A stretch of DNA of 64,000 bases, from assembly GCF_026013415.1 (NCBI RefSeq), contig NZ_JAPDOK010000003.1, positions 310,001-374,000 on the forward strand, read 5' to 3'. The notes below the pieces were generated by a model that searched no databases, was not told the DNA's origin, and saw only the letters and a program-made list of their open reading frames with translations. This document shows positions 36,614 to 44,262 of the stretch, one piece after another. This DNA is from Sphingomonas caeni (GTDB lineage Bacteria; Pseudomonadota; Alphaproteobacteria; Sphingomonadales; Sphingomonadaceae). The translations under genes were made by a program, and so were the position numbers. Positions within the stretch are counted from its first letter, which is position 1. Every line of letters begins with the position of its first letter.

Positions 36614-37192
36614 TCAGAAGCCGACGGACAGCGTCTGGCCTTCCTGGCCACCGACGAAGGTCGCGGTCCCGTTCACCGAATACTCCATCGCGAAATATTT
36701 GGTGTTGCCGTAGTCGGGATCGCCGCCGAAGGTTTCGTTGGCGATCGCGATCTGGGCAGGCGCCGAGCTCTGGCCGGCGACGATGCCGCCCTGGTTGACG
36801 ATCGCCTGGCAGATCGCGGTCACGTCGAAGCCATTGTTCGGCGTGCCATAGACCGCGCGGGTGACCGAGATCGTCGAGATCGCCGACTGACCGAGCGAAG
36901 GCTGGGCCGATGTGGCGAAGTAATAGGAGGGCGGCGAAGTCGGGATCAGGTCGATCGTCTGACCTTCCGCGCACGCCAAACCAACGGGATTGCCGTTGTT
37001 CACGCTCGGCGAGGTGTACCAGACGATGAAATATTTGGTCGAGCCCGGATCGGGGTCGCCGAAACTGGCATTGTTGGCGGTCACGTCGTCATTGCCGGAC
37101 GCTGTGAGGCTGGTCACCTGGCTGGTGACGTCGGCCCCCTTGTTGTTGGATGCGTAGACCGCCAGCATGATTGTCAGATTGGGATTGGCCAT
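36614..37192 (-). CDS. Internally duplicated DVT / FGDPD-module protein, unknown
   Basis: 192 aa, ATG with GAGGA about 8 bases upstream. It consists of two copies of one ~90-residue module. Copy 1: MLAVYASNNKGADVTSQV...NNASFGDPDPGSTKYFIVWYT...AEGQTIDL. Copy 2: TRAVYGTPNNGFDVTAIC...ANETFGGDPDYGNTKYFAMEYS...QEGQTLSV. No signal peptide and a strongly acidic, Asn/Thr/Ser-rich composition. The Y-x(n)-DVT ... DP-x-G-x-x-K ... Y pattern faintly recalls the C-terminal DUF3395 domain of DNAJC11-type proteins; this is a pattern match by eye only. Its promoter lies in a noticeably AT-rich spacer. Confidence 0.75.
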   Translation of the reverse strand: MANPNLTIMLAVYASNNKGADVTSQVTSLTASGNDDVTANNASFGDPDPGSTKYFIVWYTSPSVNNGNPVGLACAEGQTIDLIPTSPPSYYFATSAQPSLGQSAISTISVTRAVYGTPNNGFDVTAICQAIVNQGGIVAGQSSAPAQIAIANETFGGDPDYGNTKYFAMEYSVNGTATFVGGQEGQTLSVGF

Positions 37193-37481: not shown

Positions 37482-38657
37482 ATGTTGGCGGGATTGATTT
37501 TCGCGATTGACGAGGCGGTGGACCGGCCGGGGACGCTGGCGGCGACCTTGCCGTTCGGGGGCATGACCCTGCTCGAATATCAGGTGCGGCTGCTGACCGG
37601 CGCCGGGGCGGGGCAAGTGATGGTCGCGGTGGGGCGGATGACCCCGGCGCTGCTCAACGCGGTCAATCGCGCGGTGAAGCGCGGGGCGCATGTCGAGGTG
37701 GTGCGATCGGCCGAGGAAGCCTCGGAGAAGATCCCGCCCGATGCGCGCGTGCTGGTGCTCGCCGACGGGCTGGTGACGACCGATCCCGTCATCGATCGCA
37801 TGGCGGCGGAGGGCGCGGAGGCGCTGCTCGTGACCGACGATCCGCAGTCCCCCGCGGCGATCGAGCGGCTCGACATGAAGGATTGCTGGGCGGGGATCGC
37901 GAGGGTGACGGGCAAGCAGCTCGGCGAGATCGCGACGATGCCCGCCGATTACGACTTTCAGTCGGCGCTGCTGCGCGTCGCGGTGCAGGCCGGGGCCGAG
38001 CATGTGATGCTGACCCCGGGCTGGGCGAAGAGCGGGCATGTCGTCGAGCGCAGCGCGGGAGCGCTGGCGACGCGCGGCAATGCGGTGCTCGCCGCGCTGA
38101 CCGAACGGCGGACGAGCTGGGCCGACCGCTGGGTGTTCAACCGGATCGCGCGGATGACGCTGCCATGGCTGACCACGCGCAACGTGCCGGGATGGGCGCT
38201 GGAGGCGGGCGGGATCGCGCTGGCGCTGGGCGCGCTCGGCGGGATCGGCTGGGGCTGGCCGGGCGCGGGGATGGTGGCGGCTCTGGTATCGGCGGCGTTG
38301 CTCGCGGGTGGCGCGGCGATGGCGGCGCTGGGCGGTCAGCCGAAGCGCGCCGATGCGATGGAGATCGGCATCACGATCCTGTTCGGCGCGGCGACTTTGG
38401 CCGTGGGGGCGATGACGCGGATCGGGACCGGGGACTGGACTCCGTTCGTGCTCGCGATCGTCGCGGTTGCGGCACAAATACTGGTCGAGCGGTCGCCCGT
38501 ACGGCACAAGCGCTGGTGGTCGAGCCCCGCCGCGCACCTGCTCGCGCTCACGCCGTTCGTGCTCGCCCATTGCGCCACGATCGGTCTTGCCGGAATCGCG
38601 ACATATGCATTCGCGACCCTGGCCGCGGCGGTTGAGGGCAGCCGCGAAAAAGCTTAG
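37482..38657 (+). CDS. Nucleotidyltransferase-like N-domain fused to a membrane domain
   Basis: 391 aa. Residues 1-180 look like a MobA/IspD-type nucleotidyltransferase fold: GTLAATLPFGGMTLLEYQVRLLTGAGAGQVMVAVG, ARVLVLADGLVTTDPVIDRM. The C-terminal half has four or five hydrophobic helices. The architecture is reminiscent of the bifunctional inositol-1-phosphate cytidylyltransferase / CDP-alcohol transferase proteins, but the CDP-alcohol motif DGxxAR...GxxxDxxxD is absent, so the membrane half is either a different family or degenerate. Function unknown. It lies 36 bp upstream of the DUF2336 gene. Confidence 0.65.
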   Translation: MLAGLIFAIDEAVDRPGTLAATLPFGGMTLLEYQVRLLTGAGAGQVMVAVGRMTPALLNAVNRAVKRGAHVEVVRSAEEASEKIPPDARVLVLADGLVTTDPVIDRMAAEGAEALLVTDDPQSPAAIERLDMKDCWAGIARVTGKQLGEIATMPADYDFQSALLRVAVQAGAEHVMLTPGWAKSGHVVERSAGALATRGNAVLAALTERRTSWADRWVFNRIARMTLPWLTTRNVPGWALEAGGIALALGALGGIGWGWPGAGMVAALVSAALLAGGAAMAALGGQPKRADAMEIGITILFGAATLAVGAMTRIGTGDWTPFVLAIVAVAAQILVERSPVRHKRWWSSPAAHLLALTPFVLAHCATIGLAGIATYAFATLAAAVEGSREKA

Positions 38658-38693
38658 TCTCGTCTTAAGGACACTCCCGCTAGTTTGAGGTCG

Positions 38694-39812
38694 ATGTCGG
38701 ACAATCCCGTCGACACGCGCGATGGCGCTACCATCGGCGCGAAAAGGCTGCTTGCCCGGGCGGCGGCCGCGGACGTGCGCGCGTTTCACGCGCTGATGAT
38801 CGCGGTTGACGATTTCTTCCTGCCAGAGGAGTCGCGGCTCGACGAGCGGACCCGGTCGGCGCTGGCGATGCTGGTGCGCTCGCTGGTGGAGACGGTGGAA
38901 GCCGAGATTCGCGAGCATGGCGCGCGTCTGCTGGGCGCGCGGGGCGAGGCCGCGCTTGCCGGCAAGCTTGCCGACGAGCGCGTGCCGGTGCTGGCGCGGC
39001 TCTCCAAATCGGGGCTGCTGCGCGATCCCGAACTGATGGCCGAGCTGATCGCGCGGGTGCGCCAGGAATTGCTGGGCAATGCGCTGCCGATGCAGGGGGC
39101 GGTCGATCCCGAAAGGCCGAGCCTCATCAACCGCTTCGTTCAGCATCCCGACCGAGTCGTGGCGGCAGGCGCGATGGCGGTGCTGATCGCCGAGTCGCGC
39201 CGGCGCGGCGGTCCCGAATCGGGACAGCTGACTCAGACCGAGCTGCCCGCCGAGCTGCACCACCGGATGATCTGGTGGGTCGCGGCCGCGCTGCGCGAAC
39301 GCGTTGCCGAGGGTGCGGAAGGCGGAGTGGATCCGCTCGACAAGGCCCTGTCCGACGCGGCGCAGCGCAGCCTCAGCGCCTATGACGAGGGCGACCGGCT
39401 GGAGGCGACCGCGATGCGCTTCGCCGCTGCGATCGACGCGCAGCCGGGCGAATTGCCCCAATTGCTGGTGGAATCGCTGGGCGACCGTCGGATCGTGCTG
39501 TTCACCGCCTTGCTCGCGCACGCGCTGGGGGTGGGGTATGCGCTCGCCCGCGACGTGGTGGTCGATCCGGCGGGGGACCGGCTGTGGCTGGCGCTGCGCG
39601 CGCTCGACCTGACGCGCGATACCGTCGCCAAGATTGGCTATGCGCTGTGCGAGGCCGATCCTCGGCGCGATCTCGAGAGCTTCGCCGATACGCTGGATTC
39701 GATCGCCGCGATCGATGCGGGCGAGGCGCGGACCGCGCTGGCGCCGATGAAGCTTCATCCCGATTACCGGGCCGCCGTGCTGGCGCTGGGCCGCGCCGGA
39801 GGGGGGGCGTGA
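38694..39812 (+). CDS. DUF2336-domain protein
   Basis: 372 aa from an ATG with GAGG upstream. The all-helical repeat-rich protein matches DUF2336: DERVPVLARLSKSGLLRDPELMAELIARVRQE, then LPQLLVESLGDRRIVLFTALLAHALGVGYALARDVVVDPAGDRLWLALRALDL. DUF2336 proteins are common in alphaproteobacteria, often near signalling genes, with no settled biochemical role. Its stop overlaps the start of the kinase-like gene (GTGA), so the two are probably partners. Confidence 0.8.
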   Translation: MSDNPVDTRDGATIGAKRLLARAAAADVRAFHALMIAVDDFFLPEESRLDERTRSALAMLVRSLVETVEAEIREHGARLLGARGEAALAGKLADERVPVLARLSKSGLLRDPELMAELIARVRQELLGNALPMQGAVDPERPSLINRFVQHPDRVVAAGAMAVLIAESRRRGGPESGQLTQTELPAELHHRMIWWVAAALRERVAEGAEGGVDPLDKALSDAAQRSLSAYDEGDRLEATAMRFAAAIDAQPGELPQLLVESLGDRRIVLFTALLAHALGVGYALARDVVVDPAGDRLWLALRALDLTRDTVAKIGYALCEADPRRDLESFADTLDSIAAIDAGEARTALAPMKLHPDYRAAVLALGRAGGGA

Positions 39813-41227
39813 ACGCGATCGATTCCTCGCTCCCCACCGCCATCGGGCACATCGATTCGGAGGGCCGGCTGCTCGATGCCGAGGCCCGGCTCGCCGAGCT
39901 GAACGCGCGCGCTGGCGGGGCGATCGGGCAGGCGCTGGCGGTGCCGCAGATCGCCACCCTCGCGAGGCTGGCGCAACGGCTGGGGATCGGCATCTCGCGC
40001 AACGTGATCGCCGCCGATGGCGAGGACGATCTGGAACTCTGGGTGCGCGCCGAGCCTCAGGACGGCGGGGTGCGGCTCGAGGTGAGCGGGTGGCGGCTGC
40101 GGCCGCTGTGGCGCGCGGTGGCGACCGAACCCGAGCGCGACGGGGATTTCTTCCGTTCGGCTGCCGATTGGCTGTGGGAGACCGATGCGTCGCTGCGCAT
40201 CACCTTCCTCTCGATCGAGGCGGGTGCGCGTTACGGCTTCGATACCAGCGCGATGCTGGGGCAGCCGCTGACCCGGCTGTTTGCGCTCGAAGAGGATGAG
40301 ACGGGCAATTTGCCGATCCTGAGCGCGGTGGCGGCGCAGGCGCGGTTCGACGGGCAGAAGGCGGAATTGCGCGGCACAGGCCGGATGGTGCGGCTCGATG
40401 CGACGCCGCGCACCGATCCGGGCGGTCGTTTCGCAGGGTTCGTCGGCGCGGCGCACATGCTCGATCTGATCGAGCCGGTGGCGCCCAAGGTCGATGCGCC
40501 GGTGCCGGCGACGCCGTTCGGAGGCTTCCCGGACTCGTTCAGCCAGCGGCTCGACCGGGCGCTGCGCGGACCGCTGGGCAAGATCATCGCCAATGCGGAT
40601 TCGATCAGCGCGCAGACCGAGGGGCCGCTCAAGCCCGATTATGCCGAATATGCCAGCGACATCGCCAATGCCGGGCGGCATCTGCTCGGGCTGGTCGACG
40701 ATCTGGTCGATTTGCAGGCGATCGAGCGCGACGATTTCAGCACCGCTTCGGAGCCAATCGATCTGGCCGACGTCGCGCGGCGGGCGGGCGGGCTGCTCGC
40801 GGTGCGTGCTGCTCAAGCGGAAGTGCGGGTCGACAAGCCCTCGGCGAGCGAGGCGATGCCGGTGACCGGCGAATTCCGCCGCGCCTTGCAGGTGCTGGTC
40901 AATCTGATCGGCAACGCGGTGCGCTATTCGCCGCCGGGCGCGATGGTGTGGATCCGGCTCGAGCGCGACGGCGATATGGGCTGCGTGATCGTCGCCGATC
41001 AGGGCAAGGGCATCGCGTTCGAGGATCAGGAGCGCATCTTCGAGAAGTTCGGCCGCGTCGACCCGACCGAGCCTGGCGGGAGCGGGCTGGGGCTCTATAT
41101 CGCGCGGAGGCTGGCGCGGGCGATGGGCGGCGACCTGAGCGTGGACAGCGCCCCGGGCATGGGCGCGCGCTTCATCTTCACGCTTCCCTATCGTGATCCG
41201 GTGCGCGGGGCGGCTTTCGGGGCGTGA
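39809..41227 (+). CDS. PAS / histidine-kinase-like protein lacking the phospho-acceptor His
   Basis: 472 aa from a GTG overlapping the DUF2336 stop. A PAS-type domain (DWLWETDASLRITFLSIEAGARYGFD) lies near residues 110-200. The dimerisation helix reads LDRALRGPLGKIIANADSI (~249): where family members have SHELRTPL, the catalytic His is replaced by Arg. The ATPase domain is intact: N box NLIGNAVRYSPPG (~365), G1 DQGKGI (~398), FEKFGR and G2 GGSGLGLYIARRLARAMGG (~424). It binds ATP in principle but cannot autophosphorylate in the usual way. No transmembrane segment. It may act as a pseudokinase or ATP-controlled scaffold (inference). Confidence 0.82.
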   Translation: MNAIDSSLPTAIGHIDSEGRLLDAEARLAELNARAGGAIGQALAVPQIATLARLAQRLGIGISRNVIAADGEDDLELWVRAEPQDGGVRLEVSGWRLRPLWRAVATEPERDGDFFRSAADWLWETDASLRITFLSIEAGARYGFDTSAMLGQPLTRLFALEEDETGNLPILSAVAAQARFDGQKAELRGTGRMVRLDATPRTDPGGRFAGFVGAAHMLDLIEPVAPKVDAPVPATPFGGFPDSFSQRLDRALRGPLGKIIANADSISAQTEGPLKPDYAEYASDIANAGRHLLGLVDDLVDLQAIERDDFSTASEPIDLADVARRAGGLLAVRAAQAEVRVDKPSASEAMPVTGEFRRALQVLVNLIGNAVRYSPPGAMVWIRLERDGDMGCVIVADQGKGIAFEDQERIFEKFGRVDPTEPGGSGLGLYIARRLARAMGGDLSVDSAPGMGARFIFTLPYRDPVRGAAFGA

Positions 41228-42032: not shown

Positions 42033-42587
42033 ATGCTTGTCCTGCTTGCCCTTCCTGCACTGATAATCGTTGCCGCTCCGGCGGCCGACCGGCTGTTCGT
42101 CAGCCCGATGGGCGAGCCCTTTGTCGGCGACAAGGCCAATCCGCCCGCGCTCACCTGGTTCAACGGCGCCGATGCGGACAAGGACGGCAAGGTCAGCATC
42201 TACGAGTTCGAGGACGACGCGCAGCGTTTCTTCAAGACGCTCGACCTCGATCACAGCGGCGAGATCGATCCGCAGGAGAATGAGCGCTACGAGCTGCTGA
42301 TCCAGCAGGCGATCAGCGATTCGGGCGGCGGCGTCGGCCGCGGAATGGACCGCGGCTACGACCCCGAGGCCGACGGCATGATCAAGCCGAACGTGACCTA
42401 TGTGCGGCGCGGCGGCGCTTCGTCGTACAATTGGCTGGGGATCCCGCAGCCGGTGATGTCGGCCGACACCAATTTCAACCGCGGCGTGACCGCGCAGGAA
42501 TTCGACCGCGCGGCGATCACCCGCTTCCGCCTGCTCGACACCAATGGCGACGGCAATCTGGACAAGGCGGAATTGCCGAAGAGCTGA
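42033..42587 (+). CDS. Secreted four-EF-hand calcium-binding protein
   Basis: 184 aa with a short leader (LVLLALPALIIVAAPAA). Four EF-hand-type loops: D47-E58 (DADKDGKVSIYE), D71-E82 (DLDHSGEIDPQE), D145-E156 (DTNFNRGVTAQE) and D169-E180 (DTNGDGNLDKAE). Loops 1, 2 and 4 keep good ligands; loop 3 is weaker (Phe and Arg at usual ligand places). A periplasmic calcium-binding or calcium-buffering role is likely. It should be exported by Sec; the leader is short. Confidence 0.82.
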   Translation: MLVLLALPALIIVAAPAADRLFVSPMGEPFVGDKANPPALTWFNGADADKDGKVSIYEFEDDAQRFFKTLDLDHSGEIDPQENERYELLIQQAISDSGGGVGRGMDRGYDPEADGMIKPNVTYVRRGGASSYNWLGIPQPVMSADTNFNRGVTAQEFDRAAITRFRLLDTNGDGNLDKAELPKS

Positions 42588-42984: not shown

Positions 42985-44262
42985 TCAGCGCTTGTCCACC
43001 GCCACATAATCGCGCTGCACCGGGCCGGTGTAAAGCTGGCGCGGGCGGCCGATCTTCTGGTCGGGGTCCGAAATCATCTCGTTCCATTGCGCGACCCAGC
43101 CCACGGTGCGGGCGAGCGCGAACAAAGCGGTGAACATGGTGGTCGGGAAGCCGATCGCCGAGAGGATCACGCCCGAATAGAAATCGACGTTCGGGAACAG
43201 CTTCTTCTCGATGAAATAATCGTCCTTGAGCGCCATTTCCTCGAGCTGGAGCGCGACGTCGAACAGCGGATCGGTGACGTTGAGCGCAGTCAGCACTTCG
43301 CGGACGGTCTTCTGCATCACGGTCGCGCGGGGGTCGTAGTTTTTGTACACGCGGTGGCCGAAGCCCATCAGGCGGAACGGATCGTTCTTGTCCTTGGCGC
43401 GGGCGATATATTCGGGGATGCGCTCCGGACGGCCGATCTCGCGCAGCATGTTGAGCGCTGCCTCGTTGGCGCCGCCATGCGCGGGGCCCCAGAGGCAGGC
43501 GATGCCCGCGGCGATGCACGCGAAGGGGTTCGCGCCCGACGAACCGGCGAGGCGCACGGTCGAGGTCGAGGCGTTCTGCTCGTGATCGGCGTGGAGGATG
43601 AAGATGCGGTCGAGCGCGCGCTCGACCACCGGGTTCACGACATATTCCTCGGCGGGCACGCCGAAGGTCATGCGCAGGAAGTTGCCGGTGTAGGACAGCG
43701 AGTTCTTCGGATACACGAAGGGCTGACCGATCGTGTATTTATACGCCATCGCCGCGATCGTCGGCATCTTCGCGATGAGGCGATGCGAGGCCACCATGCG
43801 CTGATACGGATCGGTGATGTCGGTCGAATCGTGATAAAAGGCCGAGAGCGCGCCGACGATACCGCACATCACCGCCATCGGATGCGCATCGCGCCGGAAG
43901 CCGCGATAGAAGGTCGCGAGCTGCTCGTGCAGCATGGTGTGGCGGGTGATGGTGTAGCTGAACTTGTCGAGCTCCTCCTTGTTCGGCAGCTCGCCGTTGA
44001 GGAGGAGGTAGCTCACCTCCATGAAGCTCGAATGCTCCGCGAGCTGGCCGATCGGATAGCCGCGATGGAGCAGCACGCCCTCGTCGCCGTCGATGAAGGT
44101 CAGGCCCGATTCGCAGCTCGCGGTCGAGGTGAAGCCGGGGTCGTAGGTGAACATCCCCGTATTCGCATAGAGCTTGCGGATGTCGATCACGTCCGGACCC
44201 GTGCTGCCGGACATCACGCCATAATCGCGATCGCCGATCTTGATCGAGGTGCCGTCGGTCAT
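42985..44262 (-). CDS. gltA: Citrate synthase
   Basis: 425 aa from ATG 44262 ([19 protein letters not shown]), preceded by AAAGGA. Family motifs: [41 protein letters not shown], then [16 protein letters not shown] (active-site His and Arg), and a C-terminal [14 protein letters not shown] with the catalytic Asp. It condenses acetyl-CoA with oxaloacetate at the head of the TCA cycle. It sits 16 bp downstream of gltX on the same strand. The longer frame to 44493 overlaps gltX and is not used. Confidence 0.96.

Follow-up and report, generated by a model that had tools for sequence, protein, structure and literature searches.

The gene at 39809-41227 of a 64,000-nucleotide stretch of Sphingomonas caeni (contig NZ_JAPDOK010000003.1, positions 310,001 to 374,000; hereafter, the window) encodes a histidine-kinase-like protein of 472 amino acids in which the phospho-acceptor His is replaced by Arg and the ATP-binding boxes are intact. 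The reading that we favor, and consider likely, is that this protein is an allosteric, nucleotide-gated pseudo-histidine kinase that is distinct from DivL and was derived from a working HisKA kinase encoded directly after a DUF2336 gene. This reading draws on the joint absence of the catalytic residues in a large set of relatives, on the strict conservation of their ATP site, and on their placement beside canonical kinases that are linked to DUF2336.

Loss of the phosphorylation residues and retention of the ATP site

The initial annotation had read the dimerization-helix motif as RALRGPL in place of HELRTPL, and the alignment agrees: phmmer places R250 against the His of MSHEIRTPL in PDB entry 7z8n, and in the translation (SFSQRLD-R250-ALRGPL-GKIIANAD) Ala251 likewise replaces the Glu and Gly254 the Thr at +4. 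Active HisKA kinases combine His, E/D and T/N at +4, which the window protein lacks (R250, A251, G254), with the N, G1, F and G2 ATP boxes, all of which it has. On inspection of its sequence, helix 1 holds no other His, one turn away or elsewhere. Pfam assigns HATPase_c (97.6 bits) and PAS (28.3 bits) domains, HisKA scores 22.7 bits, under its 26.9-bit cut-off, and NCBIfam yields no named family that reaches its cut-off, either for the kinase (among the matches listed) or for its neighbors. No membrane segment is predicted, and the AlphaFold2 model, built from an 86-row alignment, has a predicted local distance difference test score (pLDDT) of 89.3 and a predicted template-modeling score (pTM) of 0.53.

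A protein search (E ≤ 1e-40) found a single match per genome in 157 of 199 sampled genomes of the same GTDB family, and the motif was read in 116 of these (30 + 80 + 6 loci). The catalytic set is absent from 111 of the inspected genomes, while the other five (G012, G040, G052, G056 and G085) are canonical. Among the 42 non-matching genomes, a profile search found a near full-length match in two, one His-less (G019) and one canonical (G007). With 49 named loci added, the His-less set comprises 161 rows, which correspond to 153 distinct sequences, since the named and other genomes overlap; these rows are related species rather than independent events.

None of the 161 rows carries the H-E/D-x-x-T/N set, and the +1 residue is never Glu or Asp. 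The acceptor site itself is highly varied, with P in 55 rows, R in 49, A and Q in 16 each, K in 7, E in 4, T and G in 3 each, N, S and H in 2 each, and V and D in 1 each (P 55, R 46, Q 16, A 13, K 6 and others among the distinct sequences); even 36 rows thinned to below 66% identity retain 11 different residues. The Arg is thus not fixed among homologues and can be rejected as a fixed functional residue. The ATP site, which the initial annotation had described as intact in the window protein, is by contrast strictly conserved: ten columns (Q361, N365, N369, D397, G399, G401, F411, G424, G426 and G428) are kept in 158–161 of the 161 rows, with N365 in 160 and N369 in 161, and only R372 is looser (R in 143 rows). 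The complete site is retained down to about 33% identity.

That the protein is a working kinase with another acceptor in its own DHp domain, for example His291 in helix 2, is highly improbable. His291 is indeed kept in 160/161 His-less rows, but it is equally fixed in the canonical relatives described below (36/36) and is therefore an ordinary family residue; sequence alignment finds a His at the same place in ShkA (6qrj). Moreover, any helix-1 His occurs in only 34/161 rows, at scattered positions with none recurrent, and the Glu at +1 is lost in every row. Both His291 and a shifted His were rejected as acceptors on these grounds. A decaying gene or an annotation artefact is scarcely credible, as the kinase gene is open and full-length in most relatives, is matched throughout most of the family, and is under purifying selection, with ratios of nonsynonymous to synonymous substitution (dN/dS) of 0.08–0.38 by domain in five kinase pairs, values that are rough given the chosen pairs and dS of up to 1.2 but well under 1. 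The one sign of decay is a named locus (L055, Sphingomonas sp. 7/4-4) whose kinase frame is apparently split near its start, which could be a sequencing error. The window protein and its His-less relatives fit the functional class of pseudo-histidine kinases: they have the histidine kinase fold, have lost the catalytic residues and are maintained by selection.

Origin of the loss among DUF2336-linked kinases

Within the same order, we used a canonical kinase adjoining a DUF2336 gene (L195) as query and took the 30 best loci. All 30 carry HEL(R/K)TPL, and 29 are preceded on their own strand by a DUF2336 frame, the remaining one (L268) ending at a contig end. Adding L194, L195 and L291-L294 gives 36 canonical rows from 35 genes (L258 being identical with L293), of which 29 come from sister families and six from the family of the window. 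The motif is intact in 36/36 rows, and 34 of the 35 genes have a visible DUF2336 gene upstream.

In a maximum-likelihood tree of 74 rows (36 His-less, 26 DUF2336-linked canonical and 12 other kinases), from which the motif columns were dropped, all 36 His-less rows group in a single clade (100/97). Sister to it, on one side of a branch (97/76), are the 26 DUF2336-linked canonical rows, and the two groups together are separated from the 12 other kinases at 99/97. The finer branching is unsure because some terminal branches are long and the bootstrap had not completely converged (0.978). The window kinase has a common ancestor with the kinases whose genes follow DUF2336, from which it differs in having lost the motif that they all keep. 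Because the His-less rows form a single clade in a tree without the motif, the simplest history is that the catalytic set was lost once, in an operon that already existed.

One canonical locus (L322, in G012) has an NTP-transferase-like gene, a DUF2336 gene, a kinase with SHELRTPL and citrate synthase in the same four-gene order as the window (Table 1), and its kinase is a positional orthologue that still bears its His. At the canonical locus L323 (G085), citrate synthase lies about 0.85 kb behind the kinase and the NTP-transferase-like gene is further off, L324 has a weak match for such a neighbor some 3 kb away, and L318-L321 have neither gene within the stretches inspected. In other orders, a kinase follows a DUF2336 gene in 2 of 4 longer loci (L325 and L327), both canonical.

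Outside the motif, further positions separate the two groups. In the DHp domain, position 258 (H+8) is Ala in 36/36 canonical rows versus R/K in 155/161 His-less rows, and G261 (H+11) of the canonical rows is Ala in 136/161. Near the ATP lid, Q416 (34/36 canonical) is Arg in 161/161 His-less rows, and H430 (35/36 canonical) is Tyr in 147/161. Counted from H260, H+8 and H+11 are positions 268 and 271 of HK853, which, according to PDB entry titles, are part of a partner-rewiring mutation set. Because the DHp changes map to these positions, the docking face appears to have been remade to suit a partner that is new or altered, and nucleotide binding presumably stayed useful.

Comparison with DivL and other kinases

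The standard example of a bacterial pseudo-histidine kinase is DivL, whose weak nucleotide site can be dispensed with. DivL exerts allosteric control over another kinase, CckA. It is also the best fold match of the window protein (4q20, from Caulobacter crescentus; Z 22.5, root-mean-square deviation (rmsd) 5.2, 220 residues aligned), tied with HK853 of Thermotoga maritima (Z 22.4), although this search hardly tested the N-terminal domain of the model. Like the window protein, DivL is alphaproteobacterial and has a HisKA-type fold, PAS domains and a replaced acceptor His. However, the genome of the window encodes a separate DivL of 782 amino acids at L329:2742-5090 (G000:C18:301241-303589, upstream of the window), which carries SYELRTPL, has 4q20 as its best PDB match (3e-32) and is followed by TsaE, APH and nucleotidyl-transferase genes. 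We take the markers of a DivL orthologue to be a position beside tsaE, the full YELRTPL motif, several PAS domains and a length of about 770 amino acids. With such a Tyr-type DivL in the same genome, the window protein is ruled out as the sphingomonad DivL, and its family is best read as a second pseudo-histidine kinase. The 782-residue DivL has His at both Asn positions of its N box, which is thus more eroded than that of Caulobacter DivL.

The two families have lost opposite halves of the catalytic machine: DivL has a Tyr in an otherwise complete motif (YELRTPL) and an eroded N box, with His at the first Asn in both 4q20 and L303, whereas the window family has lost His, Glu and Thr and kept the ATP site whole. 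This difference bears on whether that site is a structural remnant that serves folding only, in a DivL-like scaffold insensitive to nucleotide, which we consider improbable: the dispensable site of DivL has not kept its first N-box Asn, whereas N365 and N369 here are all but invariant.

HK853 and other solved HisKA kinases share the DHp-CA fold (Z about 22) but have the catalytic His (H260 in HK853, from PDB entry titles). RetS of Pseudomonas aeruginosa is among the sequence matches of the window protein (6dk8, 6dk7) and works by acting on a second kinase, GacS, and not by a phosphorelay of its own; unlike the window protein, it is a membrane hybrid that has retained its His.

The DUF2336 protein and the proposed mode of action

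The kinase gene overlaps the DUF2336 gene by a stop-start GTGA, as first described, and the upstream protein belongs to DUF2336 by its PF10098 score (60.9 bits against a cut-off of 34.6). It is the only DUF2336 Pfam match in this genome. Genomes of sister families mostly hold 4–8 copies; in the family of the window, there is usually a single diverged copy, or Pfam sees none. Because Pfam misses DUF2336 in many of the family genomes, we used our own profiles, which place the domain directly upstream of the kinase in 145/159 loci after iteration (125/159 in the first pass). Of the 14 loci without a call, L118 and L188 lie at contig ends, L133 has no long upstream frame and L187 has a weak match (22 bits); the other ten, and also L340, have the NTP-transferase-like gene directly upstream of the kinase. 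For these eleven His-less loci without an adjoining DUF2336 gene, a relocated copy elsewhere in the genome was not searched for with a sensitive profile. Among the 49 named loci, DUF2336 is upstream in 49, the NTP-transferase-like gene is present in 48 and citrate synthase faces the kinase in 44; in 17 longer loci, which come from diverse His-less members, the counts are 17 for the NTP-transferase-like gene, 15 for citrate synthase and 12 for DUF2336. The coupling to DUF2336 that had been suggested is therefore old, ancestral and common, but it is not obligatory.

Table 1. Features of the His-less kinase locus (window positions).
Feature	Position	Strand	Basis
NTP-transferase-like gene, first of conserved trio	37482..38657	+	NTP_transf_3 20.3 bits (cut-off 27); C-terminal third hydrophobic, membrane-like
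DUF2336 protein, 375 aa, all-helical model	38685..39812	+	PF10098 60.9 bits
GTGA start-stop overlap, 4 nt, DUF2336/kinase	39809..39812	+	frames
His-less histidine-kinase-like protein, 472 aa	39809..41227	+	GTG start; translation, Pfam, AlphaFold2 model
N-terminal mixed alpha/beta domain, residues 11-98	39839..40102	+	apparently PAS-like strand/helix order in model; no Pfam name
PAS domain, residues about 107-217	40127..40459	+	Pfam PAS 28.3 bits over 116-216; model
DHp helical hairpin, residues 242-306 (helices 242-268, 276-306)	40532..40726	+	Pfam, AlphaFold2 model, fold search
Arg250 codon, phospho-acceptor position	40556..40558	+	phmmer alignment, translation
Lys258 codon (H+8)	40580..40582	+	R/K in 155/161 His-less rows vs Ala in 36/36 canonical
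CA (ATP-binding) domain, residues 315-461	40751..41191	+	N365/N369 (N box), D397-x-G-x-G401 (G1), F411 (F box), G424/G426/G428 (G2)
Citrate synthase gene, convergent with trio, positional marker	42988..44262	-	Pfam Citrate_synt 458.7 bits

The NTP-transferase-like gene has no clear Pfam or NCBIfam family name. Also encoded in the window are an exported-looking EF-hand protein (42033-42587, plus strand) and a protein with repeats whose lectin match falls below the threshold (36614-37192, minus strand).

The AlphaFold2 model of the DUF2336 protein (pLDDT 91.6, pTM 0.90) has a long N-terminal helix hairpin (residues 11-44 and 54-85) before the Pfam match, and its all-helical body is modeled with confidence. 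Among the top Foldseek chains it has no close solved relative, the best match (Z 6.1, rmsd 3.9, 104 aligned) being possibly only a common helical arrangement. In the same five pairs, the DUF2336 protein evolves faster (dN/dS 0.25–0.48) than the kinase. No column is invariant across 67 rows of DUF2336 proteins, and they have no invariant His, the best column being H193 (96/143), which rules them out as carriers of a substitute His. Because DUF2336 is optional and fast-changing, a two-protein machine of pseudokinase and DUF2336 is not the constant core of the system. Our literature search found no paper mentioning DUF2336 or PF10098, and none combining Sphingomonadaceae with a pseudokinase.

These observations bear on the main alternative, that the CA domain, as a GHKL kinase, still phosphorylates another protein in trans, either a His kinase with which it heterodimerizes or, on a Ser, Thr or His, a partner such as DUF2336. 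The completeness of the ATP site across the divergence of the family would fit such an activity, as would the many other HisKA kinases in the genome of the window (26 matches), and heterodimers that involve a pseudokinase have been proposed for ChrS/HrrS (PMC9491836). We nonetheless judge it unlikely, given the lack of any invariant His or other column in DUF2336 proteins, the eleven loci without DUF2336 beside the kinase, and the R/K at H+8, which alters the docking face.

Under the reading of a nucleotide-gated pseudokinase, the ancestor would be a functional HisKA kinase whose gene directly followed a DUF2336 gene. At the base of most of the Sphingomonadaceae, or close to it, this kinase would have lost the His, Glu and Thr/Asn used for phosphorylation and dephosphorylation, retaining, by sequence, its PAS input, a dimer-forming DHp domain and a complete nucleotide site. 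The protein probably signals by shape change, without phosphate transfer, and is probably gated by nucleotide: the DHp domain would take its shape from the PAS input and from whether ATP or ADP occupies the CA domain, and its remodeled surface (R/K at H+8, the A268 rewiring position of HK853) would dock a partner. This partner might be the DUF2336 protein or the membrane protein encoded upstream, or else a response regulator or a second kinase. The window protein would be DivL-like in being allosteric and catalytically dead, and unlike DivL in keeping its nucleotide site. DivL is described as acting allosterically, without kinase or phosphatase activity (PMC4211667); since DivL is thus a pseudo-histidine kinase with a described mechanism, the initial statement that such a module has none was too strong. 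In a bolder version, which is possible but doubtful, the whole kinase lineage turned once into a phosphorylation-free nucleotide sensor, with the membrane NTP-transferase-like protein perhaps as partner and DUF2336 as a dispensable adaptor.

Several points weigh against a nucleotide-gated, catalytically dead protein. Intact ATP boxes are no proof of ATP binding, which is predicted from sequence, the conserved site could serve catalysis on another substrate, and no partner was found for the His-less kinase. The switch from Q416 to Arg is not clean, because the canonical L194 also has Arg, and the motif reading covers 116 of the 157 matching genomes. In two members of genus g25 with small genomes (L141 and L164), a His is back at the site (HSFKP), without Glu or Thr/Asn; both are nested within the His-less lineage, and a third member of the genus (L162) has Arg there. 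Finally, some residual catalytic competence is possible, because the Y550H mutation did not make DivL an autonomous autokinase but did permit autokinase activity in the presence of DivK~P (PMC4211667).

The significance of these proteins lies in a second pseudo-histidine kinase, present in most of the sampled genomes of its family, whose pattern is opposite to that of DivL: the phosphorylation residues are gone and the ATP site is strictly constrained. This family, the Sphingomonadaceae, is a large group of soil and water bacteria. Canonical kinases still exist among the relatives, one of them at the same place on the chromosome, so that the states before and after the loss can be compared, and the use of ATP as a signal by a dead kinase is open to direct test. 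The system also provides a first handle on DUF2336.
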